27,501 nucleotides of DNA, taken from IMG/VR virus record IMGVR_UViG_3300011115_000374, positions 1 through 27,501 of that record. One strand, 5' to 3'. The position numbers were made by a program, and so were the translations under genes. Numbering within the stretch: the stretch's first letter is position 1; every line of letters starts with the position of its first letter. Shown here piece by piece: positions 1 to 11,131 of this stretch. A model generated the notes under the pieces. That model saw only the letters and a list, made by a program, of their open reading frames with translations, had not been told where the DNA came from and made no database searches. The DNA comes from a virus.

Positions 1-571
1 GTCGCGCCCATCCGTTGTCCGGCGCCTTTAAGCCTTTGCCCTTCACATCATCACAGATTGCTTTGGCGAACGCCTCAGCCCTTTGACGCGGGGTTGCATC
101 AGGCGGCAGGCTGTCCAGCACACCATCACGCCATGCGTCACCCAAAGGCGCCGGCTTCGAATCAATCACGGGCGCGGCCTTTGCTGCCGCGTTGCCATCG
201 TCATCCTCGGGCGCAATTCCGGCCATCGACATCAGGCCATAACGGCGCGCATAGGTGACGGCGCTGCCATAGCCCTGCATGTCGTTCTTGGCGAGGATCA
301 ACTCAACTCGGCATTCAAGCTGATCGCCGCTCTCATGAGCGAGGATTGTCTTGACGTAACGCTTGCCTTCCTCGTCGCAGATCGGCTGGATCACCGCGAT
401 GCCGTGCTTGTTAAGAGCGGGCATACATGCCGCCATGACGCTGGCCAGATCCGCATACTTGGATTTAAATGCGGGGTTTGTGCTATCCTTCAGCGCAGGC
501 CCCATTTCCGTCTGCGCGGCAGCAAGCGCTCTGTAAATGAGCCTAGCTGCAATTTTAGTTTCTTCCGTCAT
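1..571 (-). CDS. erf: ERF-family single-strand annealing protein (3' end outside window)
   Basis: Reading the minus strand from the ATG at 571 gives 190 codons open to the window edge, so the C-terminus is missing. The protein has the ERF hallmark run: ALAAAQTEMGPALKDS (about residues 16-31), NPAFKSKYADLASV (about 32-45), then QGYGSAVTYARRYGLMS before an acidic stretch EDDDGNAA. ERF proteins such as P22 Erf anneal complementary single strands in phage recombination and genome circularisation. The tail after about residue 135 is Ala/Pro/Lys-rich and looks like a linker. A strong ribosome site (AAAGGAGAG) sits just upstream of the ATG. The gene is the last visible member of the leftward set after helicase and methyltransferase. 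The family call is secure; the partner nuclease or SSB is not visible. Confidence 0.94.
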   Translation of the reverse strand, partial: MTEETKIAARLIYRALAAAQTEMGPALKDSTNPAFKSKYADLASVMAACMPALNKHGIAVIQPICDEEGKRYVKTILAHESGDQLECRVELILAKNDMQGYGSAVTYARRYGLMSMAGIAPEDDDGNAAAKAAPVIDSKPAPLGDAWRDGVLDSLPPDATPRQRAEAFAKAICDDVKGKGLKAPDNGWAR

Positions 572-975
572 GTTCTCTCTCCTTTGGTTTTGAAGTGCGG
601 GGTGCGTGATCCTGTGCCCCGCGTCACAGCTTCAAGCGGGGGAGGGTCCGCCGATCACGCAGGCAATGGAATTGGCCCCCGGCACATTTGGGATAGCCGG
701 GGGCGCTTGGATCACACGCAGGCAAACCGTGCCGCTCGGACGCCCGCTCATGCGGTAATGGGTTGCCCCCGGCGTTTTCCGGTTAGCGCCTGTCCGCGCC
801 GGGGGTGTTCTGGGGTCCAATACAAAACCGCTGTTGCGGTTGGTTGCGGCGCGCATTGCGTCACCGATCCGGCCCCATGCCGAATGAAAGAGTGGGGGCA
901 AGCTTGCACTCAAACCCCCACAGGCGGCGGGGATGTGGGAGGAACAACCGCCCCGCGCGGTGTGGGAAAAGGTGG
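572..975. other. Hairpin-rich block between ERF and the methyltransferase
   Basis: About 400 bp with no secure gene but at least five GC inverted repeats. They are GCGGGG/CCCCGC (597-602 with 617-622), GCCCCCGGC/GCCGGGGGC (675-683 with 696-704), CCCCCGGCG/CGCCGGGGG (766-774 with 797-805), GTGGGGG/CCCCCAC (892-898 with 915-921) and GCGGGG/CCCCGC (927-932 with 951-956). The first and last share one stem sequence; the second and third share the CCCCCGGC core. None is followed by a clear T-run in either direction, so they are not convincing intrinsic terminators. They could be RNA structure, an origin-type region, or by-products of the weak ORF described separately. Confidence 0.7.
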
Positions 976-979: not shown

Positions 980-1968
980 TCGGCTGCAAGACCGAATAGA
1001 TCGCCAACCGATTGCTCGGCTTGGGCCAAGTTCTTGCCAGCCTGGCGCGCATATTCCGGCTTCAACTCAAACCCGAGATACCGGCGATATTGCTTGATTG
1101 CCTGATAGCCGGTGCTGCCTATGCCGTTGAATGGGTCCATCACAACATCACCGGGCTTGCTGTAAAGCCGCAGGCATTTGTCGATAACGTCCAGTTGCAG
1201 CGGGCATACGTGGCGTTCATCGCCAGCGGCTTTGATGCGGCTCAGAACGTTGCCCTGCTGAATGTCCATCCAGACCGGGCTTGCCAACTTCTGCCACTCG
1301 TAAACGTCAAACTCGGCAATCTTGACCAGATCGGCCAAAACATCATCAGGCGGGGTCTGCGATGCCAGCCCTTGCCGGTGCATTTCGTCAAGCCATTTGC
1401 GGGCAATGCGCAATGCCTCTTTGGTGTCACCGGGCGCGCAATGTTCAATGCGGTCTGGGTTGTCGCCGTCCTTGCGGAAAAACAGCATGTAGTCAGGCAT
1501 CCCGACCCGGTTCATTCCGCTGTCTTTGCGGATCTGCTTGTAAAGCAACCCAAGCGCCTTGGTGCGCTGCATCTCCACTACCGGGTCTTTCCAGATGGTG
1601 CTGCGCCCATGATAGATCAGCCCTGCATCGGTATGGGCCTTGATCAGATCCCCAGAGAAGTCCTGCAGGCCGATAGCCCCGTCACGGCCCTTGCGCATGG
1701 GCAGATCAGTGCAATGAACGCAGACCATCCGCCCAGGCTTCATGACGCGGGCAATAGCATCGGCAAAGAAGGCGTATTGGTTCAGAAACTTCTGACCGCC
1801 GCCCGCGTTGCCCAAGTCACGCTCACTGTCCGAATAGACAAACAGATCACCGAACGGCGGCGAAAAGATCGCACAATCCACGCTGCTTTCGGGCATCGCG
1901 TGCATTCCTTCGATGCAATCCGAATTGTGCAGCGCCCATCCGGCCCCTTGATATTCTGGCTGTTTCAT
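976..1968 (-). CDS. DNA methyltransferase, beta class (N6-adenine or N4-cytosine)
   Basis: A 330-aa amino-methyltransferase with the motif order of the beta class. Catalytic motif IV is SPPF at residues 36-39 and the AdoMet-binding motif I, DPFNGIGSTG, is near the C-terminus at 278-287, with the target-recognition region between. SPPF is commoner in N4-cytosine enzymes but also occurs in N6-adenine ones, so the base is not settled. The start chosen is the ATG at 1968, which overlaps the helicase stop (ATGA) and has GAGG upstream; an in-frame ATG at 1986 is less likely. Helicase plus methylase is a familiar phage pair, and here no restriction enzyme is adjacent, so it probably acts as an orphan methylase that marks phage DNA. 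Specificity cannot be read from the sequence. Confidence 0.93.
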   Translation of the reverse strand: MKQPEYQGAGWALHNSDCIEGMHAMPESSVDCAIFSPPFGDLFVYSDSERDLGNAGGGQKFLNQYAFFADAIARVMKPGRMVCVHCTDLPMRKGRDGAIGLQDFSGDLIKAHTDAGLIYHGRSTIWKDPVVEMQRTKALGLLYKQIRKDSGMNRVGMPDYMLFFRKDGDNPDRIEHCAPGDTKEALRIARKWLDEMHRQGLASQTPPDDVLADLVKIAEFDVYEWQKLASPVWMDIQQGNVLSRIKAAGDERHVCPLQLDVIDKCLRLYSKPGDVVMDPFNGIGSTGYQAIKQYRRYLGFELKPEYARQAGKNLAQAEQSVGDLFGLAAE

Positions 1969-3923
1969 TGTCCCGCCCTCACCCATTCAGGGAATGCCAG
2001 ATCAAGCGGCCTGTCATAGGCGACCCGGCGTGATGTTGTTGATTGTGCGTTGCGCATCGCATCGGCCATGCGGCGTTTCATTTCGTCGTGCTTGGCAGCC
2101 TTGGTATGAATAATCTCAATAATGGATGATTCAGTGTCACTGATCACAATATGAACATTGACCTGCCGCCCTTGGCCGAACCGCCAAACCCGCCGAATGC
2201 CTTGGTAGAAGGATTCGTAGCTGAAATTGACAGACGCGAAGATCACATTGCGGCAGTGCTGGAAGTTCATTCCAAAGCCGACGATTTTTGTTTTACTTAT
2301 CAGAACTGGCCGTTCACCATCGCACCATGCCAAGATGCGGCGTTCTTTTTCGTCTGGATCGTCCGAACCTCTCACTGAAAACGCGAGATTGCCAAACGCC
2401 ATTTCCAATGCGTCTTGCTCGTCATTTGTCTCGCAATAGATCAGCCACGGGTCAGCCGTTATGGCGCTCCAGGTATTCGATAGCACGGCGCAATCTTGTG
2501 GTATCGTCTCGCATTTTTCCGAGTGCGGTGTTGCAAGCGGTGCAGAGCAACTGCCGGACTTTTCCGGTTGCGTGGCAATGATCGACGTGAAGGATTTTGC
2601 CGCGCTTTTCTTCATGCTTGACGCCGCAAATGGCACAAGCCGATCCCTGATCTGCAAGCATTCGCTCGTAGTCAACTTGGGTGATCCCATAAGTTGATTT
2701 AAGGCGACCGTTCCTCCTGGATATAGCAGGTCTGCTTTTGGCGCTGGATTTGGCTTTTTCTGCGTATTCCGGGTCGGATGCGTATTTTGCGCGCCGATTG
2801 GCGTTGTTTCTGTCTCGCCGCTCTTTAGTGTTGGCAAACTTTTCTGGGTTGGCAATGTAGTATTGCCGCATGTATTCGGCGTTTTCTTCTGGCGTTCTGC
2901 CTTGGGATTTGCGCCGTTCGCGTTCTGCGTCGTCATCGTGGTATCGCTGTTTGCGGGCAGCGGCATATTCTGGCTTCCACGGCATTCGATATCTCCAATG
3001 TCAATTCTTGCCAGCGTGTTTCGGAACCCTTCAAAAGCAAGGGAAACCGCCATTTCGCAGCGTTGCTTCAGGGTCAGCCGCTTTTCCTCATGGAATGACG
3101 TGGCCGACATTTCAGGGATACGGAACAACATGCCTTCGGCAATGTTCGCCATCCGGTCCGCTGCAACGGTGTGGATGCGCCGATCTACATCGGGCAGAAC
3201 ATACCCGGCATCATCGCCGCCAAGGTCAGACGGCAGGGTTGCGCAACGCGACCAAGACGCAACCCACCCCCAGAAGTCCGCAACCGCATGGCCTTTCAGC
3301 CGCCACTCTTGCGAAGCCGTCGCGGTGTCATTGATGAACCACTTCGACAGCATCTCTTGCTGGCGCATGACCCCCAAAAACTCAGCATGGTTGCCTAGTT
3401 CGGTGTGATCGTTCGGGCTTGGTGTTGCCGTCGCTGCCAGCTTGTAATCCGTCTTGGCAAAGGCATCCTCGATCATGGCGCGGGTGCGGCCCGCATAGCT
3501 TTTCAGGATGCTGCTTTCATCCAAGACAACAGCGCCGAATGCAGCCGGGTCCAGCTTGGCAAGCCGCTCATAGTTCGCCACCATGACGCCTTGGCCGACT
3601 TCCGACTGTTCGCGGATTTGACGGGCATCAATGCCGAACTTCTGACCTTCCCGAACCATCTGACCGGCCACCGCAAGCGGGGTCAGGATCAACGATGGCT
3701 TGCCAGTTTCATCCGCGCATTGGCGGGCGAACTCCAACTCAATGAGGCTCTTGCCAAGGCCGGTGTCCAAAAACGCTGCCGACTTGCCAGCGTTCAGGGC
3801 AAAGTCCAGAACGGCAGATTGATGCACCTTGACGGCGCTATTTAGCGGACGCGGGGCAAAGCCGGTCTTGAAGGTGTTGCCAGCGCGGGCAGCGATGAAG
3901 GCGCGATATTTATCGAGGCTCAC
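1965..3923 (-). CDS. SNF2-type DNA helicase with an inserted segment
   Basis: A 652-aa superfamily 2 helicase of the SNF2-like phage type. Visible motifs are Walker A DTGLGKS (53-59), motif II LDESS (about 134-138), motif III ATATPSP (about 164-170), the motif V region SKTKIVGFGMNFQHC, and motif VI QGIRRVWRFGQGR (about 574-586). Residues about 298-490 do not look helicase-like; they are rich in Thr, Asn, Lys and Pro, and this is the stretch where an HNH endonuclease gene is encoded in another frame. Removing it leaves roughly 460 aa, close to the usual size of this family. The start chosen is GTG at 3923, overlapping the upstream stop (GTGA) with AAAGG in front. Likely role: duplex unwinding or remodelling in phage replication or recombination. 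Whether the enlarged protein is active cannot be told. Confidence 0.92.
   Translation of the reverse strand: MSLDKYRAFIAARAGNTFKTGFAPRPLNSAVKVHQSAVLDFALNAGKSAAFLDTGLGKSLIELEFARQCADETGKPSLILTPLAVAGQMVREGQKFGIDARQIREQSEVGQGVMVANYERLAKLDPAAFGAVVLDESSILKSYAGRTRAMIEDAFAKTDYKLAATATPSPNDHTELGNHAEFLGVMRQQEMLSKWFINDTATASQEWRLKGHAVADFWGWVASWSRCATLPSDLGGDDAGYVLPDVDRRIHTVAADRMANIAEGMLFRIPEMSATSFHEEKRLTLKQRCEMAVSLAFEGFRNTLARIDIGDIECRGSQNMPLPANSDTTMTTQNANGANPKAERQKKTPNTCGNTTLPTQKSLPTLKSGETETTPIGAQNTHPTRNTQKKPNPAPKADLLYPGGTVALNQLMGSPKLTTSECLQIRDRLVPFAASSMKKSAAKSFTSIIATQPEKSGSCSAPLATPHSEKCETIPQDCAVLSNTWSAITADPWLIYCETNDEQDALEMAFGNLAFSVRGSDDPDEKERRILAWCDGERPVLISKTKIVGFGMNFQHCRNVIFASVNFSYESFYQGIRRVWRFGQGRQVNVHIVISDTESSIIEIIHTKAAKHDEMKRRMADAMRNAQSTTSRRVAYDRPLDLAFPEWVRAGQ
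2452..2985 (-). CDS. HNH homing endonuclease (endonuclease VII type) nested in the helicase gene
   Basis: A complete 177-aa HNH protein encoded on the same strand as the helicase but in a different frame. The C-terminal half has the endonuclease VII layout: zinc Cys at 117 and 120, the active-site block HVDHCHATGK at 133-142, and Cys 148 and 151 before N152. The N-terminal half is charged, with NPEKF and DPEYAEKAK elements seen in such mobile HNH proteins. It has its own ribosome site, GGAG seven bases before the ATG. Its TGA stop lies within the helicase codons for the conserved-looking ADPWLIYC stretch, so nothing is left over at the 3' side. This looks like a mobile endonuclease gene that landed in the helicase gene. 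It is too compact to include an obvious intron. Confidence 0.93.
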   Translation of the reverse strand: MPWKPEYAAARKQRYHDDDAERERRKSQGRTPEENAEYMRQYYIANPEKFANTKERRDRNNANRRAKYASDPEYAEKAKSSAKSRPAISRRNGRLKSTYGITQVDYERMLADQGSACAICGVKHEEKRGKILHVDHCHATGKVRQLLCTACNTALGKMRDDTTRLRRAIEYLERHNG

Positions 3924-4114
3924 GCTGCACCTTTGAAGGTAAAGCAATCGCGGGGCAGAGGCCGCCCTGCGCGGTTTTCAAGCATGTTGTACCAGGCGGC
4001 GGGCAGCTTGTTGCCGTCCTCGGCCTTGCGGACGGCATCAATTTTGACGCTGACCAGATCAGCGACCGCTTGGCGACCGCCTAGGAATGTGATGATGTCG
4101 GATGCTGTTTTCAT
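3920..4114 (-). CDS. Small Cro-like HTH DNA-binding protein
   Basis: A 64-aa protein, MKTASDIITFLGGRQAVADL..., followed by VKIDAVRKAEDGNKLPAAWY and AGRPLPRDCFTFKGAA. The pattern (a GGRQAVADL helix, a V-x-x-DAV recognition helix, then LPAAWY...GRPLP) is that of short phage HTH proteins related to Cro and YdaS, sometimes called carph-isopro domains. It is the first gene of the leftward set, next to two palindromes and a divergent promoter, so it is the best candidate for the regulator of this switch. The ATG at 4114 is chosen because a sigma70-like -10 element ends seven bases before it; an in-frame GTG at 4129 lies inside that promoter. The binding site assignment is inference. Confidence 0.8.
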   Translation of the reverse strand: MKTASDIITFLGGRQAVADLVSVKIDAVRKAEDGNKLPAAWYNMLENRAGRPLPRDCFTFKGAA

Positions 4115-4120
4115 GCGCCC

Positions 4121-4148
4121 ACAATACACGCCAAGGATGCTCGGTCAA
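4121..4148 (-). promoter_or_regulatory. Leftward promoter for the HTH-helicase operon, predicted leaderless
   Basis: On the minus strand TTGACC (4148-4143) is separated by 16 bp from TATTGT (4126-4121). The expected transcription start falls at about 4114, the A of the HTH gene's ATG, so the mRNA would be leaderless, as the lambda cI transcript from PRM is. No strong Shine-Dalgarno sequence precedes this ATG, which fits. Confidence 0.65.
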
Positions 4149-4161
4149 GGAAAACAATTCC
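4149..4161. promoter_or_regulatory. Putative operator O1
   Basis: Imperfect palindrome GGAAAACAATTCC directly upstream of the leftward -35 box. It shares the pattern GGAAA-N3-WTTCC with the second site, and the two centres are 21 bp apart, two helical turns. A protein bound here could touch polymerase at the leftward promoter. Confidence 0.55.
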
Positions 4162-4162
4162 G

Positions 4163-4191
4163 TTGACGCGGAAAATGTTTCCGCATAGTGT
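4163..4191 (+). promoter_or_regulatory. Rightward promoter for the early operon
   Basis: TTGACG (4163-4168), 17-bp spacer, then TAGTGT (4186-4191), a weak -10. It precedes the first early gene, whose ATG at 4224 has an AGGGAG ribosome site. The perfect palindrome of O2 occupies the spacer, so repressor binding would block it. Confidence 0.55.
4168..4184. promoter_or_regulatory. Putative operator O2
   Basis: Perfect 7-bp inverted repeat GCGGAAA-ATG-TTTCCGC, with core GGAAAATGTTTCC at 4170-4182. It lies between the -35 and -10 boxes of the rightward promoter, the classical place for a repressor site. The core matches O1 at the outer positions. Confidence 0.6.
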
Positions 4192-4223
4192 TTGCGCATA
4201 GAAACGCTACAGGGAGAGCGAAG

Positions 4224-4520: not shown

Positions 4521-4686
4521 AATCATTCACATCAAAGCCCTGACCGCCGCAGATCGGCTGTCGCAGGCCATTGCCGTCACATCGAAGGCGGTTGACGAGG
4601 GCCGCGGCTATGTCCTGCATGTGTTCAGGGATGGCAGCCTGTTCTGCGTCACCGTGACGCTCGATGCCGTGCAGGTGGCAGAATGA
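4510..4686 (+). CDS. Hypothetical small early protein
   Basis: A 58-aa protein (MQAEIIHIKALTAADRLS...) with a predicted helix around AADRLSQAIAVTSKAVDEG and a beta end YVLHVFRDGSLFCVTVTLDAVQV. There is no recognised family. The ATG at 4510 is picked over an in-frame start at 4435 because a perfect AAGGAGG lies about eight bases upstream and the upstream gene ends at 4520. Its stop overlaps the next start (ATGA), so the two are translationally coupled. Confidence 0.72.
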   Translation: MQAEIIHIKALTAADRLSQAIAVTSKAVDEGRGYVLHVFRDGSLFCVTVTLDAVQVAE

Positions 4687-5033
4687 GTTCTTGCATCATG
4701 GTTCACACGGACGCGGCCCCGGTCGCAAAGATGGCTGACACGACGACTTCGTGGCTGCACTTCCCGACCGAGTGCGGCGGGTACGTCGCCATTTTCATGC
4801 CGTCTCACGTCGCTGAGGCAATGGTTGCCGCATTCAACGAGGCATCCGTTCCCGGCTATGACGCCCTGTTCGGCTTCACCGAGGAAGTCCGCGACCACAA
4901 GCCCGAGGTCATCAGCGGACGCCGCCGCGACCCACAAGACGACACAGACGACCTGATGCCTCTGCCCGAGTTTGAAGCGTTCCAAGCGGATGCTGAGGCG
5001 CTGGTGGGTAAGAAGCGGAAGGTGGCAGCATGA
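4683..5033 (+). CDS. Hypothetical early protein
   Basis: A 116-aa soluble protein. The N-terminal half has WLHFPTECGGYVAIFMPSHVAEAMVAAF, an alternation of strand and helix. The C-terminal half is acidic (DDTDDLMPLPEFEAFQADAEALV) and ends in a basic tail KKRKVAA. It starts with ATG inside the upstream stop (ATGA) and ends in the same way on the next gene, so it sits in the middle of a coupled chain. No domain was recognised. The basic tail could contact nucleic acid, but that is a guess. Confidence 0.72.
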   Translation: MSSCIMVHTDAAPVAKMADTTTSWLHFPTECGGYVAIFMPSHVAEAMVAAFNEASVPGYDALFGFTEEVRDHKPEVISGRRRDPQDDTDDLMPLPEFEAFQADAEALVGKKRKVAA

Positions 5034-5245
5034 ACGCCAGCGATGACGATTGGGCAGCCAACGGCGAACTGTACCGCATCCTGGTCGAGGATGAAGTGGA
5101 ACGGCTCGGCGCGCCTGCATCGGATTTCTGGGAATGGATTGACGATCTGAAATGGTGGATCTGCGCCGGGGTCGCAATGTATGCGGGCCTGAACATCTCC
5201 GCCGCTGTGATTGTCAAAGTCGGCATGTGGGCTGGGTGGTGGTGA
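5030..5245 (+). CDS. Small membrane protein
   Basis: A 71-aa protein with an acidic N-terminal half (NASDDDWAANGELYRILVEDEVERLG) and a hydrophobic C-terminal third (KWWICAGVAMYAGLNISA and AAVIVKVGMWAGWW) that could form one or two membrane helices. Start ATGA overlaps the upstream stop; its TGA overlaps the next ATG (TGATG). It sits in the early operon far from the lysis genes, so it is more likely an early host-membrane factor than a holin. No family was recognised. Confidence 0.7.
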   Translation: MNASDDDWAANGELYRILVEDEVERLGAPASDFWEWIDDLKWWICAGVAMYAGLNISAAVIVKVGMWAGWW

Positions 5246-5892
5246 TGCCGCTTCGCGTTTTGATCGGTTGCGCCACGTCCTGCGTGGCCCTCGATGCCTT
5301 CCTCGCGCGGGGCCATGACGCTTGGCAATGCGACCTGTTGCCAGCAGACAAGCCCACCAACCGGCACATCCAAGACGACATCCGCAACGTGCTGCATCTG
5401 GGTTGGGACTTGGCGCTGGTGTCGAACCCGCCATGCACCAGGCTCTGCAATTCCGGGGTGCGATGGTTGTCTGTCCCGCCACCCGGCAAGACCACGGCAC
5501 AGATGTGGCGCGAACTGGACGAGGCCGCGGACCTATTCAACGCCTGCCTGAATGCGCCGATTGCGCGGGTTGCGGTGGAAAATCCGGTCATGCACGGCCA
5601 TGCCCGCGAAAAGATTGTGGGCTGGGTCAAGCCGCAGATTGTGCAGCCTTGGTGGTTCGGTGATCGGGCATTCAAGGCAACGGGGCTTTACCTGCGCGGC
5701 CTGCCGCCGCTGGTGCCCACCAACCGCCTGACCCCGCCGAAACCCGGCACAGATGAACACAAGGCGTGGTCGATGATCCACCGTGCCAGCCCCGGCCCGG
5801 ATCGGTGGAAGGTTCGCAGCAAGACGTTTCCCGGTATGGCCGATGCTTGGGCGGATCAATGGGGCACCTACACAATGGAATCCGCCGCATGA
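5245..5892 (+). CDS. C5-cytosine DNA methyltransferase-like protein
   Basis: A 215-aa protein that starts MPLRVLIGCATSCVALDAF and continues ARGHDAWQCDLLP, a reduced AdoMet-binding motif I region with the acidic residue after strand 2. SNPPCTRLCNSG carries a PPC motif like the catalytic PCQ of C5 enzymes, and VAVENPVMHGHA resembles their ENV motif VI. It then has QPWWFGDRAFKATGLYLRGLPPLVPTN, typical of the short phage 'DNA cytosine methyltransferase-like' proteins. At 215 aa it is much shorter than a standard C5 enzyme and lacks an obvious target-recognition domain. It may modify cytosine or a nucleotide, or act differently. Start ATG 5245 overlaps the upstream TGA, and its own stop overlaps a micro-ORF start. 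Confidence 0.82.
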   Translation: MPLRVLIGCATSCVALDAFLARGHDAWQCDLLPADKPTNRHIQDDIRNVLHLGWDLALVSNPPCTRLCNSGVRWLSVPPPGKTTAQMWRELDEAADLFNACLNAPIARVAVENPVMHGHAREKIVGWVKPQIVQPWWFGDRAFKATGLYLRGLPPLVPTNRLTPPKPGTDEHKAWSMIHRASPGPDRWKVRSKTFPGMADAWADQWGTYTMESAA

Positions 5893-5942
5893 CCCGCCCT
5901 CGCCACGTCCACAGCCCACCATCGCCGCCGCGCCGGAAATGA
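5889..5942 (+). CDS. Micro-ORF, copy 1
   Basis: A 17-codon frame, MTRPRHVHSPPSPPRRK, starting in an ATGA overlap with the methyltransferase-like gene. A nearly identical micro-ORF occurs at 7988-8044 in the same relation to its neighbours. The Arg/Pro/His-rich peptide has no known fold. It may be a leader peptide that carries ribosomes to the next start 24 bases on, or just conserved junction DNA. Confidence 0.4.
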   Translation: MTRPRHVHSPPSPPRRK

Positions 5943-6001
5943 CAACAGCAACACATGAGGATGAATATGACCCCCGCCGAAATAGCCGCCAAGTTGACGC
6001 C
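5901..6001 (+). repeat. Long direct repeat, copy 1
   Basis: A 101-bp stretch matched at 8003-8103 with three mismatches by eye (5939, 5970 and 5971). It covers most of the micro-ORF, the gap with the MRMNM multiple-ATG start, and the first 11-12 codons of the next gene. Sequence identity stops abruptly at the right end. Confidence 0.9.
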
Positions 6002-6287
6002 CGCGCACCTTCAGGTTTCGCGCTATTCCGTCTTTGATCAAGACACCCAAAGATACAGCGGCGATTTCATCCAGGTTGGCCCGGTCGACTTGGGGTCATT
6101 CCGCGACTTGACGAATGCCGAATATGAAAGGTGCAAACTGGACTATCCGGCCAATCCTGCTTTTGCCATGCGCCCGATGTGGCACACGGGGTCGGCATTT
6201 GGCGCAGACATTCTGGCCTTGGCCGTGCAAGTGCGTGGCCTGTCCGTCCTGGCCGCTCTTGACGCGAAGGAGGCGGGGAATGGGTGA
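5967..6287 (+). CDS. Hypothetical early protein, duplicated module gene A, copy 1
   Basis: A 106-aa protein starting MTPAEIAAKLTPAHLQVSRY. Three in-frame ATGs occur (5955, 5961, 5967); the last is preferred because AGGA sits five bases ahead of it. The first 11-12 residues and the end VLAALDAKEAGNG match the paralogue at 8069, while the middle (DLGSFRDLTNAEYERCKLDY...) is unrelated by eye. No domain was recognised. It overlaps the next gene, whose AAGGAGG site lies in its last codons. The conserved ends with a different centre suggest exchange of central segments. Confidence 0.72.
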   Translation: MTPAEIAAKLTPAHLQVSRYSVFDQDTQRYSGDFIQVGPVDLGSFRDLTNAEYERCKLDYPANPAFAMRPMWHTGSAFGADILALAVQVRGLSVLAALDAKEAGNG

Positions 6288-6579
6288 TCTGGTGGAGCGG
6301 CTGCGACTGCGCGGTGACCCTGAAAGCCGGGATGCCGCCGCCCGCATCACCGCCCTTGAGGCACAGGTGGACGCCGCCAACGCAACTGCCATCGCCGACG
6401 CCATGCAGATCAGCGACCTGATCCGGGCGAATGCGCATCTTATGGCGCAGGTAGCGGCGGCTGACAGGCTGGTGGATGCGGCTCATAGAGCCGCAGAGTT
6501 GCTGGAGTTTTCATACGGTGAACCTCCTAGACTGTTGTGCCAAGCAATCGCCGCCTGCCGTGCGGCAAAGGGGGAATGA
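6280..6579 (+). CDS. Small coiled-coil protein, duplicated module gene B, copy 1
   Basis: A 99-aa helical protein (MGDLVERLRLRGDPESRDAA...). Residues about 23-67 carry heptad-like AARITALEAQVDAANATAIA and AQVAAADRLVDAAHRAAEL segments, likely a coiled coil and oligomeric. The end IAACRAAKGE is shared with the paralogue at 8409, as are the MGDL start and the RITALEAQV segment. The ATG overlaps the upstream stop and has AAGGAGGCGGGG before it. Function unknown; this kind of short coiled-coil protein is frequent in phage early operons of this group. Confidence 0.75.
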   Translation: MGDLVERLRLRGDPESRDAAARITALEAQVDAANATAIADAMQISDLIRANAHLMAQVAAADRLVDAAHRAAELLEFSYGEPPRLLCQAIAACRAAKGE

Positions 6580-7100
6580 TGACCGGACCTGAACGGATTT
6601 TCGCCACAGGCGACGGCACCCACGGGGTTTGGATGGACGCCTCATTGCCGCTTACACCCGGCCCCGGAGGCGTTGAATACATCCGCGCCGACACATTGAC
6701 CCTTGGGGTGGTGGTCAAGCCGCTGGTGTGGGAGCATCACCCAATGGGCTACATCGCTGCTCCACCAACTGGGCGGGCCTACATCATCGACATTCGCGTG
6801 AAGAACCGCGTGTTCTTCGTGAAGGGTATGGAGCCGCCACCCAAAGTTGACACGCTATATGAAGCAAAAGCACTAGCCCAAGCCGACTACACCGCCCGCA
6901 TCCTCGCCGCACTGGAACCGCCAGACCACGCGGCCCTGCTTGCCCATGCCATGAGGCTGCCCGAGGTGACGGCGCTGGTGGGATGTGGGCAGCGGATGCG
7001 AGGTCATTTGCATCGTATAGCCGATGACGGCGACCTTAACGCAACGGGGGCAATGATCGAATGGGATGACGCCCTCGCAGCCTTGGAGGCCAAGCCATGA
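6579..7100 (+). CDS. Hypothetical early protein, duplicated module gene C, copy 1
   Basis: A 173-aa protein. The start TGPERIFATGDGTHGVWMD and the GGVEYIRADTL element belong to a pattern common in small phage proteins of unknown function (PERI...EYIRAD). The second half has KNRVFFVKGMEPPP, YEAKALAQADYTARILAAL and HAALLAHAMRLPEVTALV, ending ALAALEAKP. The HAALLAHA...LPEV and ALAALEAKP parts recur in the gene at 8665. Two adjacent ATGs (6576, 6579) are possible; 6579 has the better distance to AAAGGGGG. Its stop overlaps the next start within the reused junction AGGCCAAGCCATGA. Confidence 0.75.
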   Translation: MTGPERIFATGDGTHGVWMDASLPLTPGPGGVEYIRADTLTLGVVVKPLVWEHHPMGYIAAPPTGRAYIIDIRVKNRVFFVKGMEPPPKVDTLYEAKALAQADYTARILAALEPPDHAALLAHAMRLPEVTALVGCGQRMRGHLHRIADDGDLNATGAMIEWDDALAALEAKP

Positions 7101-7354
7101 AAGACACGCCTATCAGCAAATACGTGCGTGAAAAGCGCGGCCTGCCGGATAACTGGCGGGTGTACATGACGGAAGCCACGGGTGCCAATTATACAAAGGT
7201 CAAGGTGACAGGTTCGCTTGTCAGGCCGGTTGACCCTCACTTTGAGCCGCACCTTCATAGGGATTTTGACTGGATCAAACCACTGCAAGGCAAGGCGCAA
7301 ATGACAATCACGTCAGACGAATATGCGCGGATATACAATGAGGCCAAGCCATGA
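7097..7354 (+). CDS. Hypothetical early protein
   Basis: An 85-aa basic protein (MKDTPISKYVREKRGLPDNW...) with beta-like runs RVYMTEATGANYTKVKVTGSLV and KAQMTITSDEYARIYNEAKP. No domain was recognised. It begins and ends at copies of the reused junction AGGCCAAGCCATGA, so its last residues EAKP are set by that junction rather than by its own fold. It lies between the two copies of the duplicated module. Confidence 0.72.
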   Translation: MKDTPISKYVREKRGLPDNWRVYMTEATGANYTKVKVTGSLVRPVDPHFEPHLHRDFDWIKPLQGKAQMTITSDEYARIYNEAKP

Positions 7355-7659
7355 CTGACCAGATCGACATCAGCCGGGAAGCGGTTGCGTTTGAAGTCAA
7401 TGGGTTGCGGTTCCTGCATAATTCGACCTGCAAGGAAACGCGACTGCCGCCGAAAGAATGGGTGACGGCGCATAGTCGTGCTGCCACCATGATCCTTGCC
7501 CTACGCGCCGCCCTTGACGCCGCCGAGGCCGAGAAGGCGCGGGCGGTGGAGGCGGAACGGGCGGCATTTGCCGAGGCCGTGACTACTCTTTGCGACCCGG
7601 CCCTCGCTACAGAGATTGCCTTTGCGACATCAGCCATCCGCACGGAGGCCAAGCCATGA
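7351..7659 (+). CDS. Coiled-coil hypothetical early protein
   Basis: A 102-aa protein with an N-terminal mixed part (DISREAVAFEVNGLRFLHN) followed by a long Ala/Glu helix (LALRAALDAAEAEKARAVEA and on to AEAV) that is probably a coiled coil. It ends IRTEAKP at another copy of the reused junction. The start ATGA overlaps the upstream stop with AGG 10 bases upstream. The helical region resembles the coiled coils of the genes at 6280 and 8409 in composition only. Confidence 0.72.
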   Translation: MTDQIDISREAVAFEVNGLRFLHNSTCKETRLPPKEWVTAHSRAATMILALRAALDAAEAEKARAVEAERAAFAEAVTTLCDPALATEIAFATSAIRTEAKP

Positions 7660-7991
7660 CCGCCCCCACCAAAACCCGCCTTGCCGCCGCCCTGCGTGAG
7701 GTGGCTGCCAAGGCAAACGCCGCCAATGCAGCAGTCTATGAAGCCTTGGCCGTCCGCGCCGAAACGGGCGAGTTTGACGATTATGCCGATGTGCATGTCT
7801 GCGGACCGACCGCGCTTTACGCCGAACTGACCCGCCACGGCTTTACCAAGTTCGCCGCCCGCGTGGCAGATGGCGAGTTCGATGCCAGCGAGGCCGAGAG
7901 CGAGGAATGGGCGCGGAACCAGACCGACCCGCAGATCATCGCCTTGATGTACGCAATGGGCATCGGCCCGGACAGGAGCAAGGATCAATGA
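7656..7991 (+). CDS. Hypothetical early protein
   Basis: A 111-aa protein (MTAPTKTRLAAALREVAAKA...) with helical N- and C-terminal parts and a central VHVCGPTALYAELTRHGFTKFAARV. The acidic region DGEFDASEAESEEWARN precedes a hydrophobic helix QIIALMYAMGIG. It is soluble by appearance and no family was recognised. The ATG at 7656 has GGAGG eight bases upstream inside the reused junction. Its TGA overlaps the ATG of the second micro-ORF, exactly as the methyltransferase-like gene does at the first copy. Confidence 0.75.
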   Translation: MTAPTKTRLAAALREVAAKANAANAAVYEALAVRAETGEFDDYADVHVCGPTALYAELTRHGFTKFAARVADGEFDASEAESEEWARNQTDPQIIALMYAMGIGPDRSKDQ

Positions 7992-8044
7992 CCGACCGCC
8001 CCCGCCACGTCCACAGCCCACCATCGCCGCCGCGCCGGAACTGA
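7988..8044 (+). CDS. Micro-ORF, copy 2
   Basis: An 18-codon frame, MTDRPRHVHSPPSPPRRN, in an ATGA overlap with the upstream gene. It matches the 5889 copy except near the start and in the last residue. Conservation of the frame, its start overlap and its place in two contexts argues mildly for translation. Confidence 0.4.
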   Translation: MTDRPRHVHSPPSPPRRN

Positions 8045-8103
8045 CAACAGCAACACATGAGGATGAATATGGACCCCGCCGAAATAGCCGCCAAGTTGAC
8101 GCC
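8003..8103 (+). repeat. Long direct repeat, copy 2
   Basis: Second copy of the 101-bp repeat at 5901-6001, offset by 2102 bp, with three mismatches. It marks the left edge of the second copy of the duplicated gene module. Confidence 0.9.
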
Positions 8104-8416
8104 ATTTGTCGCAGTTCCCAGCCAATTCTTCCGATGCCATCAAGACTGGGTAAACCGTGCAAGCCGCTGCCTGACATCGCATCCCAAGTATCGCAACACG
8201 TCGCACCTGATGGTTAAGGGTTGGCGCGGCTATGACTTTGTTGCCATGTGTTTTGACCAAAAAGGCAGGCGTTGCCTGAATGGCGGCGATTTCCAGCGCG
8301 CCGCTGATGATGGTGCATTCCCCGTCTGGTGGATTTGGCCTGATCAGATTGCCGAGTTGATCATGGGCCGCGCCGTCTTGGCCGCTCTGGATGCGAAGGA
8401 GGCGGGGAATGGGTGA
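8069..8416 (+). CDS. Hypothetical early protein, duplicated module gene A, copy 2
   Basis: A 115-aa protein starting MDPAEIAAKLTPFVAVPSQF. The start chosen is the third of three in-frame ATGs, with AGGA ahead, as in the first copy. The centre (HQDWVNRASRCLTSHPKYRN, KGWRGYDFVAMCFDQKGRRC, FPVWWIWPDQIAEL) differs entirely from copy 1, whereas the end VLAALDAKEAGNG is the same. No domain was recognised. It overlaps the next gene in the same geometry as copy 1. Confidence 0.72.
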   Translation: MDPAEIAAKLTPFVAVPSQFFRCHQDWVNRASRCLTSHPKYRNTSHLMVKGWRGYDFVAMCFDQKGRRCLNGGDFQRAADDGAFPVWWIWPDQIAELIMGRAVLAALDAKEAGNG

Positions 8417-8663
8417 TCTGACAGACGCTTGGGATGACCTTAAAGACCGATTGCCTGATGATGATGCAAGCGCAGCCGGGATGCTTTTTGACTTTTGCGA
8501 CAAGTTGGCCGACCGCATCACCGCCCTTGAGGCGCAGGTAGCGGAGGCTGACAGGCTGGCGGATGAAGCCGATGCAGCAGCGGGCACTCTGGACTGCTTG
8601 GGGATGCATCGGCCAATTTTGGAATTGAAAATCGCCGCCTTCCGTGCGGCAAAGGGGGAATGA
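8409..8663 (+). CDS. Small coiled-coil protein, duplicated module gene B, copy 2
   Basis: An 84-aa acidic helical protein (MGDLTDAWDDLKDRLPDDDA...). It shares MGDL, RITALEAQVAEADRL and IAAFRAAKGE with the protein at 6280, with a different region before the coiled coil. The ATG at 8409 has AAGGAGGCGGGG upstream, identical to copy 1. Likely an oligomeric coiled-coil protein of unknown role. Confidence 0.72.
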   Translation: MGDLTDAWDDLKDRLPDDDASAAGMLFDFCDKLADRITALEAQVAEADRLADEADAAAGTLDCLGMHRPILELKIAAFRAAKGE

Positions 8664-8664
8664 C

Positions 8665-9027
8665 ATGATGACAACTGAGGAATGGAACGACAAGCCCACG
8701 GGTTCCAGTGATAAACGCGCCGATCTGTCCTCGCCCCTTGGGGCGGTGGCGATGCGGGAAGATGTGTATAAAGCTGCCCGCATCGCCTATAACAAGACTG
8801 AGAATTTCCCGGCGGTATTCAACGCCATCCGCTCAATCCCCCTGCCCACCCACGCGGCCCTGCTTGCCCATGCGTTGAAGCTGCCCGAGGTGGCGGCGCT
8901 GGTGGAGGCGTTGGATGATATGTGTATCATTGCCAAGCAAGACGACTGGGACAAATCGCTATCCGGTCGGCAGTTGGTTTATCGCAACTCATGCGCCGCC
9001 CTAGCCGCATTGGAGGCCAAGCCATGA
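8665..9027 (+). CDS. Hypothetical early protein, duplicated module gene C, copy 2
   Basis: A 120-aa protein (MMTTEEWNDKPTGSSDKRAD...) followed by YKAARIAYNKTENFPAVFNA. It lacks the PERI...EYIRAD part of its counterpart at 6579 but has the shared C-terminal parts HAALLAHALKLPEVAALV and ALAALEAKP. So only the C-terminal half is homologous, which points to a swapped N-terminal half. The start at 8665 has AAAGGGGG six bases upstream. It ends at a copy of the reused junction. Confidence 0.72.
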   Translation: MMTTEEWNDKPTGSSDKRADLSSPLGAVAMREDVYKAARIAYNKTENFPAVFNAIRSIPLPTHAALLAHALKLPEVAALVEALDDMCIIAKQDDWDKSLSGRQLVYRNSCAALAALEAKP

Positions 9028-9119
9028 CCGCAAAGAAAATCTGCATCTGCGGCTGGAATGCGGCGGCTGGAAAGTGCCCGTATCCGATTAACTGCAAGCC
9101 TTCAAAGGCCAAGCCATGA
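9024..9119 (+). CDS. Cys-rich mini-protein, last gene of the early operon
   Basis: A 31-aa frame with four cysteines: KICICGWNAAAGKCPYPINC, spacing C-x-C-x8-C-x5-C, then a Lys-rich tail ending AKP. Four closely spaced Cys suggest a small metal-binding knuckle or a disulphide loop. It starts in ATGA overlap with the upstream gene, preceded by GGAGG, and ends at another copy of the reused junction. A further nine-codon frame (9116-9145) follows but is probably the junction tail only. The stop lies two bases from the convergent lysis gene's stop. Confidence 0.55.
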   Translation: MTAKKICICGWNAAAGKCPYPINCKPSKAKP

Positions 9120-9121
9120 CC

Positions 9122-9322
9122 TTACCAGCCCGCCAGCGCCTCTAGCTGCGCCAAGAAGGCCCTGCCTGTAATCCGGGCGGCTGCCATGTCATCGCCTGCC
9201 AAAGCGATAGCGTGCGCAGCCGCAGGGGCGCGCAAACGATCAACGCTTGTTGCGGTCTGCGAACTCACGCATCCACTTGATATGATCGCCATCGGCAGCA
9301 CCAATGCCCAGATCCGCATCAT
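9122..9322 (-). CDS. Outer-membrane spanin lipoprotein (Rz1-like)
   Basis: A 66-aa protein with a short signal peptide MMRIWALVLPMAIISSGC, in which the lipobox ISSGC puts the lipidated Cys at residue 18. The mature part is about 49 aa and Ala-rich. The gene overlaps the preceding small membrane-protein gene in another frame, as Rz1 does with Rz. o-spanins link to the inner-membrane partner and fuse inner and outer membranes in the last step of lysis of Gram-negative hosts. The mature part lacks the usual Pro-rich stretch, so the call rests on lipobox, overlap and position. An upstream AGAGGA serves the tandem ATGs at 9322/9319. Confidence 0.68.
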   Translation of the reverse strand: MMRIWALVLPMAIISSGCVSSQTATSVDRLRAPAAAHAIALAGDDMAAARITGRAFLAQLEALAGW

Positions 9323-9446
9323 TCATCCTCTCATGGGCCTTCGTGTCTTGTTTGCGCTTGGCGTCCGTTACAGCATCCGCGCGGATCAACCAGATCGTCA
9401 GGAACTTCCAAACGATCTGGCCGATGATCGCAGTAAAAGCCTTCAT
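9240..9446 (-). CDS. Putative inner-membrane spanin (Rz-like), overlapping the o-spanin
   Basis: A 68-aa protein with one N-terminal membrane helix (FTAIIGQIVWKFLTIWLIRA) and a charged periplasmic part (DAKRKQDTKAHERMNDADLG...). The start overlaps the holin stop (ATGA). The end overlaps the lipoprotein gene by 83 bp in another frame. Topology, order (holin, this, lipoprotein) and overlap fit an i-spanin. It is much shorter than lambda Rz (153 aa) and its periplasmic helix is short, so a different accessory role is possible. Confidence 0.58.
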   Translation of the reverse strand: MKAFTAIIGQIVWKFLTIWLIRADAVTDAKRKQDTKAHERMNDADLGIGAADGDHIKWMREFADRNKR

Positions 9447-9610
9447 GCCTTGCGCTTGGCGTAGATCGACCAGGCAGCGACAGCAATCGTTGCAGCAGCG
9501 CCGCCGATGGTGGTGACGGTTTCCGCGTCCACCAAGCCCTGCCCGACGAAATAACCGCCGATTGCCGCCGCCAATGCGCGGACGATGCCGCCGATTTGCT
9601 CACCAGTCAT
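9443..9610 (-). CDS. Holin (Pam3-gp28-like)
   Basis: A 55-aa protein, MTGEQIGGIVRALAAAIGGY..., with two Ala/Gly-rich membrane helices (about 8-25 and 32-49) around VDAETVTT and a basic end YAKRKA. This is the look of the small Pam3-gp28-type holins of phages of Rhodobacterales. A holin permeabilises the inner membrane so that endolysin reaches the cell wall. AGGAG lies about eight bases before the ATG. It sits 10 bp after the endolysin gene and overlaps the next gene by four bases. Confidence 0.82.
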   Translation of the reverse strand: MTGEQIGGIVRALAAAIGGYFVGQGLVDAETVTTIGGAAATIAVAAWSIYAKRKA

Positions 9611-9620
9611 GATTGTCTCC

Positions 9621-10031
9621 TCATTTTGCCGGATAGACCCGGCGATCAAGCTGCCAATGCGGGCCGTCCTTGAAGCTTCGCCACGAACCGCCCCAGACAA
9701 TGGCCACATCTTCCTTGTCAGCAGCGGCCTTAATGACAGGCGCCAGCTTGTAGTAGAGCGGCCATGCGTACATCTCCTCGACCTCGACCTTGCCGTTCTT
9801 GTCGATGTCCACATAGGGGACCAGATCGACGGCATGGCCGGTGAGGTGACGGCTGTTGAGGATATTCGACGCACCGACGCGCACAAGTTCACGCTGGCGT
9901 TCAATGGTGCGCAGACCTTCAGTCACGACAAAAGCAAACGGTGCTTCCTGCAATGCCCGGTCCATGACACGGCGCAGATCTGGGTGAATACCCGTCAGGT
10001 TTCGAAGGCTGCGCGCGTCCCACTGTCTCAT
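9621..10031 (-). CDS. M15-family peptidase endolysin
   Basis: A 136-aa enzyme with the M15 (VanY/D-Ala-D-Ala carboxypeptidase-like) signature SRHLTGHAVDL: S60, H62, G65 and D69 fit the SxHxxGxAxD pattern, and H125 in DGPHWQL is the third zinc ligand. Phage members cut peptide bonds in peptidoglycan. No signal peptide is seen, so export would depend on the holin. The length matches single-domain phage M15 endolysins. The start overlaps the upstream stop (ATGA). Substrate bond not determined from sequence. Confidence 0.93.
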   Translation of the reverse strand: MRQWDARSLRNLTGIHPDLRRVMDRALQEAPFAFVVTEGLRTIERQRELVRVGASNILNSRHLTGHAVDLVPYVDIDKNGKVEVEEMYAWPLYYKLAPVIKAAADKEDVAIVWGGSWRSFKDGPHWQLDRRVYPAK

Positions 10032-10261
10032 TTGCTGCCAACCCGCGAAATCAGGGACTTTATATCATCGCGGATCTCGGACAGCATCTTGTTGGTTTCC
10101 TCGCGCGCCTGCTTGGACGTCTCCAAGTCTTCCTTGCGCTGATACCACAGCCGCTTGATCTCCTTGCTGTTCTCAACGCTGCGCGCTTCCAGGCGGATCA
10201 GCCAGACGATGGTTGCCACGAAAGCAACGGCAAGCGGCCAAAATGTGCGGATTATTTCCAT
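10028..10261 (-). CDS. Membrane-anchored coiled-coil protein of the lysis module
   Basis: A 77-aa protein with an N-terminal membrane helix (FWPLAVAFVATIVWLIRL) followed by a charged helix (NSKEIKRLWYQRKEDLETSK and on to LSEIRDDIKSLISRV), probably a coiled coil. The ATG at 10261 has GGAG six bases upstream; an in-frame TTG at 10273 overlaps that site and is rejected. It lies between the transglycosylase and endolysin genes. It could be a second holin/antiholin-like or a spanin-like protein. Topology is clear, family is not. Confidence 0.78.
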   Translation of the reverse strand: MEIIRTFWPLAVAFVATIVWLIRLEARSVENSKEIKRLWYQRKEDLETSKQAREETNKMLSEIRDDIKSLISRVGSK

Positions 10262-10277
10262 CTTAGTCTCCAAACCG

Positions 10278-10832
10278 TTACTTCAAATTGAACTGCTGCA
10301 AGATAGCATAAGGGTCATATGCTGCCAGTGCATCTGACTGCGTGCTGCGCAATTGTGGGATTGTGAACGGCGGCATCCGAGCCGTCGATGCAATGCCGTA
10401 GTCATTCCCAGCAGGCTGCCCCATCGTCAACGGGAGGTTCGCCGACCGGCCATTGAAGGCAGTATCAGCCACGCCCGTGCCGAGGATCTTGGCAACGTAG
10501 TTCTGCGTTTCCTTGAAGGGCGGCATGCCACCATATGCGCGCACATTGCCTGGCCCAGCGTTATAGGCGGCCAGAGCCGTGGGCATGTCGCCGAACTCGT
10601 CCTGCATCATCCTGAGATATCGCGCCCCGCCGCGCAGGTTTTGTTCAGGGTCCATCGGGTCAACGCCGAGATCAGCAGCAGTGCCAGGCATTAATTGAGC
10701 CAGACCCAACGCACCCGCCGATGATACTGCGTCAGCGTTGAAACTGCTTTCGGCTTCAACCAGACGCACGAACACGTCGGGATCAATGCCCTCCTCGATC
10801 GCTATCTGTTTTGCCAGCTCTCTATAGTCCAT
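10278..10832 (-). CDS. SLT-type lytic transglycosylase
   Basis: A 184-aa enzyme with the SLT/Slt70 catalytic fold. The catalytic Glu is E28 in VEAESSFN, followed by SSAGALGLAQLMPGTA (37-52), NLRGGARYL (66-74) and AYNAGPGNV (89-97). Such enzymes cleave glycan strands with anhydro-ring formation. After the domain the tail (GTGVADTAFNGRSANLPL...) is low in charge and carries no anchor. The gene lies between virion and lysis genes, so it may work in lysis or be a virion muramidase used at entry. The ATG at 10832 has AAGGGGAAG upstream; a GTG at 10838 is too close to that site. Confidence 0.92.
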   Translation of the reverse strand: MDYRELAKQIAIEEGIDPDVFVRLVEAESSFNADAVSSAGALGLAQLMPGTAADLGVDPMDPEQNLRGGARYLRMMQDEFGDMPTALAAYNAGPGNVRAYGGMPPFKETQNYVAKILGTGVADTAFNGRSANLPLTMGQPAGNDYGIASTARMPPFTIPQLRSTQSDALAAYDPYAILQQFNLK

Positions 10833-10834
10833 TG

Positions 10835-11131
10835 TCACTTCCCCTTATTGCGTGCGGAGATTGCCTTGGCTTTTCTGCGCGCGTCGGCTTTGCTGGATGC
10901 GCCCCACGCCTTCAAAGACAGCAGCAGGCGCGTTGGTTCGCCATCCTTGCGTTCAGGCCCCGGCATGTTGCCCATGCGCGCCAGGAACGACGCCCTGCGA
11001 GGGTTGTTGCCAGACTTCACCGGGGCTTTCAGGTTCATGCCTTCAGCCTTCGCAGATGCGCGCCCCTTGGCGTTCAAGCCGCCGCTGGCAGACTTGCCTT
11101 CTTTGCGCATCCACGCTGGTGTCTTGGACAT
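10835..11131 (-). CDS. DUF6321-like small basic phage protein
   Basis: A 98-aa very basic protein (MSKTPAWMRKEGKSASGGLN...). The runs GGLNAKGRASAKAEGMNLKA and NPRRASFLARMGNMPGPERK are characteristic of a conserved phage family, which I recall as DUF6321. The high Arg/Lys content and Gly-rich loops suggest binding to nucleic acid or to another virion or terminase component, but the role is not known. It starts in a TGATG overlap with the preceding small gene, and AGAAGG precedes the ATG. The stop is two bases before the transglycosylase start. Confidence 0.85.
   Translation of the reverse strand: MSKTPAWMRKEGKSASGGLNAKGRASAKAEGMNLKAPVKSGNNPRRASFLARMGNMPGPERKDGEPTRLLLSLKAWGASSKADARRKAKAISARNKGK

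Follow-up and report, generated by a model that had tools for sequence, protein, structure and literature searches.

The virus record IMGVR_UViG_3300011115_000374 of IMG/VR, analysed here over its whole 27,501 nucleotides (nt; hereafter the window), carries a run of small plus-strand genes between a DNA methyltransferase-family gene and a convergent minus-strand block starting near position 9120, whose genes look, from their translations, like lysis and structural genes. Within this run, which we call the array, a micro-open reading frame (micro-ORF) and three genes, A, B and C, occur twice in the same order; genes D, E and F lie between the copies, and gene G follows the second (Table 1). The gene coordinates agree in order and position with the initial annotation of the window, which had described a duplicated four-gene module and proposed that its conserved junctions serve as homology for cassette exchange. 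Here we examine this proposal from the two copies, their relatives and an independent group of phages. Other loci are cited by our own numbers (L005 and so on), and J1 to J4 denote the junction boxes.

Identity islands in the two copies of the module

Similarity between the two copies is confined to islands rather than spread evenly along them. The left junction, counted by eye in the initial annotation as 98 of 101 identical positions (5901-6001 against 8003-8103), gave the same count when computed, and the longest exact run in the entire left repeat, J1, is 38 nt. Further islands comprise the A tail with the B start (J2), two stretches of the B core, the B tail with the C start (J3) and a box inside C, all listed with their identities in Table 1, and the C end (28/31). 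The centre of gene A is at shuffle level, 20 of 300 shuffled sequences giving as good a local-alignment score, as are the tail-middles of B (170/300) and C (69/300). The annotated contrast between conserved junctions and divergent centres is too simple, in that two conserved islands, the B core and the C internal box, are intragenic. The G+C content by codon position is alike in the A1 and A2 centres and in the complete genes, which fits centres that code for protein.

A simple duplication whose gene bodies then diverged fast would leave such a pattern if the junctions were held by selection on ribosome-binding sites, start/stop overlaps and protein ends. The boxes do carry Shine-Dalgarno (SD) sequences and overlaps, and the heads of B and C retain weak similarity. 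J1, however, is 96% identical, spacer and synonymous sites included, beside an A centre without detectable similarity; a duplication of a single age cannot yield both, so exchange must have affected either the bodies or the joints. Given this and the relatives described below, we see only a very small chance that duplication and divergence explain the array.

J4, GAGGCCAAGCCATGA, extends beyond the two copies. It ends C1 and C2 exactly; it also ends D and E exactly and G with one mismatch, making five places where 0.25 would be expected by chance. In this element an SD stretch, which reads GGAGG at three of the five places, precedes a stop and a start that overlap, and the C-terminal EAKP would thus be the ribosome-binding site of the next gene read in frame. 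Both copies of J1 fold less well than all of 200 shuffled sequences, as one might expect of an open translation start. The micro-ORFs (5889-5942 and 7988-8044) encode HVHSPPSPPRR, with two Pro-Pro pairs; in L003 and L005, other genes have related proline-rich leader ORFs ahead of them. The micro-ORF could be a leader peptide. No sigma-70-like promoter was found in 5800-9150 (0 against 1.2 in shuffles), other promoter types lying outside the scan.

Pfam gave no family at cut-off for the nine array proteins scanned, and NCBIfam nothing above cut-off for the array proteins. In PHROGs only the methyltransferase is named, the best value for an array protein (E 0.008) being to a family of unknown function, and Rfam returned no match. 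A single-sequence model of the compact gene A protein of L005 is helix-rich with a short hairpin (pLDDT 68.9), and its best PDB match (E 4.8) is not significant; a winged helix is no more than a guess.

Different arrays between similar flanks

With the gene right of the array as a query, six viral contigs were found whose right flank is 85-96% identical to the window by block. The array differs from that of the window in all six (L243 being seen only for its last 215 nt), and fixed orthologues are thus not what these relatives hold. Between the flanks lie 3.2 kilobases (kb) in the window, 1.3 kb in L242, 2.0 kb in L247, 2.6 kb in L246 and 0.2 kb in L245; in L244, other genes lie upstream. In L245 (reversed, 1-800) the array is nearly gone, the methyltransferase is cut at the window equivalent of position 5655 and the right flank is 93-96% identical; judging from this contig, the array seems dispensable. 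Sequences at gene boundaries are conserved between phages: J1, J3, J4 and the A head are shared with L242, L244, L005 and L246. The B internal box is also present in L242, L247 and L005, and the boxes of gene E are common to L242, L246, L243 and L245. In zones reaching 30 nt to either side of start codons, 66% of the sequence lies in tracts that recur in the other copy or in relatives, against 27% elsewhere, a coverage matched by 0.5% of circular shifts; the analysis comprises eight arrays and one window, and the shift test was made once, on a single array.

Exchanges can also be seen directly between phages. L246 and L247 share blocks of 96.0% identity over 5,007 nt, 96.6% over 2,240 nt and 97.1% over 688 nt, between which lie two unrelated segments, the methyltransferase region and the array middle. 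The right edge of the array swap is the box CTCGCCCCTTGAGGCGGTGGCGATGCGG (SPLEAVAMR), the counterpart of the SSPL(G/E)AVAMR box of C2; since this edge lies inside a gene, the C genes of the two phages are chimeric, with unrelated heads and with tails that differ at 2 of 109 codons. L242 and L275, whose loci are otherwise unrelated (no other match at E 1e-5), share a single 533-nt block of 99.4% identity limited by the start junction GGAATGATG and the coiled-coil box GAGGCTGACAAGGCGGCTGCGGTGGAGG. Such a block contradicts duplication and divergence, as does the fact that the bodies of relatives differ at the same joints. Gene G occurs alone in L250, from ATG to stop, after a polymerase gene (by eye), and an 82-amino-acid gene of L250 is composed of pieces matching L242 (52 nt, 90%), L246 (145 nt, 97%) and, in its last 26 nt, L246 and L247 (100%). 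L250 and L275 come from 27 newly fetched loci, most of which were chance matches to a short box; L250, L274 and L275 were examined further. The proposed exchange of cassettes is supported, in that exchange ending at junctions is seen between phages; the two outcomes named in the initial annotation as refuting it, even divergence along both copies and fixed orthologues in related phages, were both contradicted. The proposal was too narrow in two respects, as crossovers also fall at internal coiled-coil boxes, giving in-frame chimeras, and single cassettes also move between otherwise unrelated phages.

Further features of these loci were recorded. At the left edge of its array, L246 (reversed, about 1438-2952) carries a different methyltransferase between the same neighbours, of cytosine-5 type by eye, a whole-gene swap. 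The methyltransferase of the window probably starts at the ATG near 5242 and is 87-93% identical in L130, L131 and L134. L246 (reversed, 4951-5262) also contains an in-frame tandem module repeat within one gene (AMREAAIDA..., AMRDAALKA...; 73% over 152 columns), and L005 (reversed, 4682-5506) encodes, just upstream of its array, a protein with many LTGGDYATLTGG-like repeats. The DNA-polymerase-like ORF of L250 (reversed, 8282-10993) seemingly bears an intein-like insert, by eye. Gene F matches four Rhodobacter phages at 72.7-73.7% (7677-7995) and EBPR podovirus 2 at 71.1% (7656-7977). Away from the array, an HNH-nuclease-like ORF (by eye; 2452-2985, minus strand) overlaps a helicase-like ORF (1965-3947, minus strand). 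L005 aligns to the window at 964-2093 and 3047-4216, on either side of the HNH-like ORF but not across it, and this ORF may be a homing-type insertion.

Table 1. Features of the array and its surroundings, in window coordinates
Feature	Position	Strand	Remarks
DNA methyltransferase-family gene, left flank of array	5152-5892	+	phrog_757, E 7.8e-49; another methyltransferase in its place in L246
Micro-ORF, copy 1	5889-5942	+	
J1 box, copy 1: micro-ORF, spacer, ribosome-binding site, A head (MTPAEIAAKLTP)	5894-6001	+	104/108 to 7996-8103
Gene A1: head and tail shared, centre unrelated	5955-6287	+	Head/tail also in L003, L005, L131
J2 box, copy 1: A tail, ribosome-binding site, B start, 8-nt gene overlap	6244-6291	+	45/48 to 8373-8420
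Gene B1, coiled-coil-like, C-terminus RAAKGE*	6280-6579	+	
B internal box (RITALEAQV...ADRL), interrupted by extra sequence relative to copy 2	6337-6478	+	30/32 and 33/35 to 8508-8565
J3 box, copy 1: end of B, where the SD reads K-G-E, and ATGATG at the C start	6546-6583	+	33/34 to 8630-8663; 92.7% over 41 nt in L242
Gene C1 (PERIF...YIRAD-type head), C-terminus LAALEAKP*	6579-7100	+	
C internal box, copy 1 (HAALLAHA.LPEV.ALV)	6926-6981	+	52/56 to 8850-8905
J4 junction after C1 (SD and overlapping stop/start)	7086-7100	+	
Further J4 copies	7340, 7645, 9013; 9105	+	One mismatch at 9105
Gene D	7097-7354	+	J4 at its end
Gene E (DQIDISREA head; LALRAALD...AEKARAVEAE box)	7351-7659	+	J4 at its end
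Gene F	7656-7991	+	Strongest DNA relatives in named phages among array genes
Micro-ORF, copy 2	7988-8044	+	
J1 box, copy 2	7996-8103	+	
Gene A2	8057-8416	+	
J2 box, copy 2	8373-8420	+	
Gene B2	8409-8663	+	
J3 box, copy 2	8630-8663	+	96.9% over 8632-8663 in L242
Gene C2	8668-9027	+	J4 at its end
SSPL(G/E)AVAMR box within C2	8716-8759	+	93.2% over 44 nt to L247
C internal box, copy 2	8850-8905	+	
Gene G cassette, 31 amino acids	9024-9120	+	90.7% over 97 nt to reversed L250 10993-11089
ERF-family single-strand annealing protein	179-629	-	PF04404 domain at 179-538; gene start and length taken by eye from the open frame

A coiled-coil hinge in an independent group of phages

Loci L010-L129, at least the matches listed, were selected by the J4 15-mer itself. 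Transfer as the source of J4 shared between distant phages was accordingly rejected, since this sharing is ascertained by the selection and may be convergent or due to chance; as evidence from J4 we counted repeats within one contig, together with tests made without J4. One contig, L061, has ten consecutive junctions of one form between small genes, mostly ending EAKP; exact J4 occurs nine times in this contig. Genes with a coiled-coil hinge, EIERLRARV, separating head from tail occur both in the 15-mer loci and in loci related by their methyltransferase (L013, L143, L144, L147, L148, L149). Across L001-L204, searched with one hinge pattern and an ATGA or GTGA start, and skipping pairs with a head or tail below 36 nt, 32 hinge genes in 18 loci gave 4 pairs that share both halves, 22 that share the head only and 18 that share the tail only; 26 of the 32, in 16 loci, belong to at least one recombinant pair. 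A looser clustering, which merged most tails into one family, was superseded by this stricter count. Tails of 89-95% DNA identity stand behind unrelated heads, which again speaks against duplication and divergence. L281 combines, with the hinge as the joint, the head of one L061 gene and another L061 gene's tail. A third array type, with ERIKRLEEAGD-like boxes, KEAKP ends and junctions of the form AAGGAGGCCAAGCC(A/G)TGA, was observed in L127, L051 and L053.

A search blind to the hinge, using the tail GNSVPPHIEAA, returned 13 viral contigs with five head families. Followed leftward in 62 comparisons between families, homology reaches precisely to the first hinge codon in 25 and continues for another 2-16 nt upstream in 7; in the remaining 30, all of which involve one head family, it ends inside the hinge. 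Families were grouped by hand from translations, and near-identical contigs make the independent events far fewer. These ends of homology bear on illegitimate recombination followed by selection, under which the boxes would recur because working genes need a start, a ribosome-binding site and a coiled coil. In the available text of PMC3029335 this is the usual view for mosaic joints without shared boundary sequences, and the hinge may indeed be needed by the protein. That homology begins at or about the hinge behind different heads argues against it, as does the DNA of the hinge: codons for the same residue are identical in 74% of 2,863 comparisons, where pooled codon usage would predict 43%, across 376 gene pairs that share neither half and are not independent of one another. 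We consider illegitimate joining distinctly unlikely as an account of these joints.

All relatives are assembled contigs, and chimeras formed at repeats during metagenome assembly are a further candidate. L061 is suspicious in this respect: it departs from the near-identical L280 and L287 at a hinge, about 210 nt from its own contig end and next to repeated sequence, which may be an assembly error. Three head-tail combinations, however, are each found in three contigs (L061/L280/L287, L282/L283/L286 and L277/L278/L284). For misassembly through long k-mers, moreover, the longest exact runs of the window boxes, 14-38 nt, are short. Assembly chimeras are thus highly unlikely to explain the pattern, and some assembly error in the uncultivated array contigs could still be present.

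Probable exchange at short boxes and its known counterparts

Segments bounded by boxes and ending abruptly are observed, as are chimeric genes and, in six relatives, different arrays between similar flanks; the case for real box-bounded shuffling of cassettes and half-genes is well supported. In our view the locus is likely to be an accessory, hypervariable arm of the operon of a tailed phage, whose cassettes are joined by recombination at short repeated boxes. Two types of joint would be used. At the translation-coupling junctions J1 to J4, the last codons of one gene would double as the SD of the next, with stop and start overlapping or nearly so; internal coiled-coil or helix boxes would allow in-frame fusion of a head with a new tail. 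The duplicate modules of the window would then be two assemblies from one kit, alike at the joints and unlike in the intervening parts, which would descend from different donors. The enzyme is probably a phage annealase, here ERF, that uses short homologies while phages replicate or coinfect a cell; the small proteins would be dispensable early host-interaction factors.

The ERF annealase named in the initial annotation was confirmed in the window (PF04404 above cut-off, 89 bits, E 5.4e-27). According to the available text of PMC3945230, Erf of phage D3 recombines substrates of 78% identity about as well as Red. Dedicated diversification machinery, for instance a diversity-generating retroelement, invertase or cassette integrase, would fit a repeat array of variable content. 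Yet J4 lies on one strand only, whole segments differ rather than scattered bases, and no such enzyme was found among the proteins scanned, which covered part of the window ORFs; we regard a machine of this kind as extremely improbable.

Several observations weigh against recombination at the boxes. Weak similarity remains in the heads of B (0 of 300 shuffles as good) and C (3 of 300), and L246 and L247 carry an ordinary homologue of the stretch that runs from the C2 tail through G (76.9% over 307 columns). The boxes may be kept for translation or coiled-coil function, becoming joints by consequence. Exact junction repeats are uncommon, a 14-mer containing ATGA occurring at least three times in 1 of 76 loci chosen by their methyltransferase. 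No recombinase is common to all relatives: among 28 records, most of them fragments, ERF was found in 1, a RecT-like protein in 4, AAA_24 in 3 and none of the three in 20. The array relatives are all uncultivated contigs, and the searches turned up no cultivated phage that carries an array of this kind. Searches of named phages with the PERIW and C genes of L247, the A gene of L005 and the hinge gene of L148 returned no match, nor did a search of plasmids with the last; the BLAST low-complexity filter may mask coiled coils in such searches. Two array or hinge proteins gave one weak match (E 2.4e-4) among 394 genomes of the family of L215 and none among 385 of its class.

L215 itself was the one stretch read of 35 that matched a head pattern in genome contigs, mostly from unrelated phyla and probably by chance, and it held nothing relevant. 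Viral contigs searched with A1 gave five pattern matches and no relative.

Whether mosaics form by illegitimate joining or through short shared sequences is an old question, and in the two phage groups described here the breakpoints are placed to within a few codons. As the pieces are short and defined, exchange at a box is directly measurable. New head-tail fusions of old parts would be one source of small phage proteins without relatives. A further reading, which we think unlikely, is that of a combinatorial repertoire, in which the hinge is at once the DNA crossover point and the protein pairing surface, so that any head could join any tail and the products co-assemble as new two-sided adaptors; phages would, if this were true, keep making new adaptors against changing host targets.

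Short conserved sequences have reportedly been described at module joints in studies of lambdoid boundary sequences. Searching open-licence PMC papers, we found no description of these arrays, which does not prove its absence. Several systems share some of their properties. The Start-Associated Sequences of Cluster K mycobacteriophages are a 13-bp repeat present in 11-19 copies at the ribosome-binding sites of non-structural genes of different families, read as probable translation signals; the available text of PMC3203893 mentions no cassette exchange at them. J4 is similarly a repeated sequence containing a ribosome-binding site beside the start codons of unrelated genes (five places in the window, nine exact in L061). 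It differs from their consensus GGGATAGGAGCCC, the comparison being made on the consensus rather than on the extended inverted repeats, and the array boxes lie in overlapping genes and coincide with breakpoints. The PeSL elements of T4-type phages (Arbiol 2010 and Comeau 2014, via the available text of PMC4503421) combine a promoter with a stem-loop and were proposed to mediate small-gene shuffling. They, too, are short repeated elements among small genes; unlike these early promoters by stem-loops, the array has no sigma-70-like promoter in 5800-9150, and J1 is unstructured.

Ea22 of lambdoid phages has an N-terminal part, a coiled coil, dissimilar C-terminal parts and a common terminal K/R-G-E of unknown meaning; the available text of PMC7093339 compares this one gene in four phages and mentions no joint mechanism. 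Array proteins share this architecture of head, coiled coil and variable tail, and a terminal K-G-E. Lambda ea22 (L248, lambda J02459 29300-31400, reverse strand of 548-1096) ends in AAAGGAGAGTGA, which reads KGE* and contains an SD-like stretch in frame with a GTGA overlap, followed by a frame of only five codons. Like J3 of the window, the terminal KGE of lambda ea22 can thus be read as an SD, and the terminal motifs K-G-E* and E-A-K-P* would be explained as the in-frame ribosome-binding site of the next gene. The nine array proteins scanned have no match to the Ea22-like Pfam family, which we take to be PF13935.

Shuffling of protein fragments in phages gives mosaic proteins, mainly of core functions, and is expected more often in unknown accessory proteins (PMC10684548, available text); the array proteins are likewise mosaics of exchanged parts. 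The relaxed recombination of Rad52-like proteins is established experimentally in PMC3945230, the available text of which mentions no boxes in small-gene arrays. In mycobacteriophage Island3, genes 67 and 68 share their C-terminal 18 residues (about 50 bp), given in the available text of PMC3029335 as the first such case there. The same text cites lambdoid boundary sequences as flanking exchangeable segments, with homologous recombination between them proposed. The array resembles these most closely in having short sequences at gene boundaries that are conserved between phages, with different modules between the same flanks. It differs in that some boxes are repeated within one genome, so that successive genes share a joint, and in that breakpoints fall not only at gene or module boundaries but also in internal boxes, giving chimeric genes. 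It works in the manner of boundary-sequence exchange, to which the array adds boundaries repeated along its length and boxes inside its genes.

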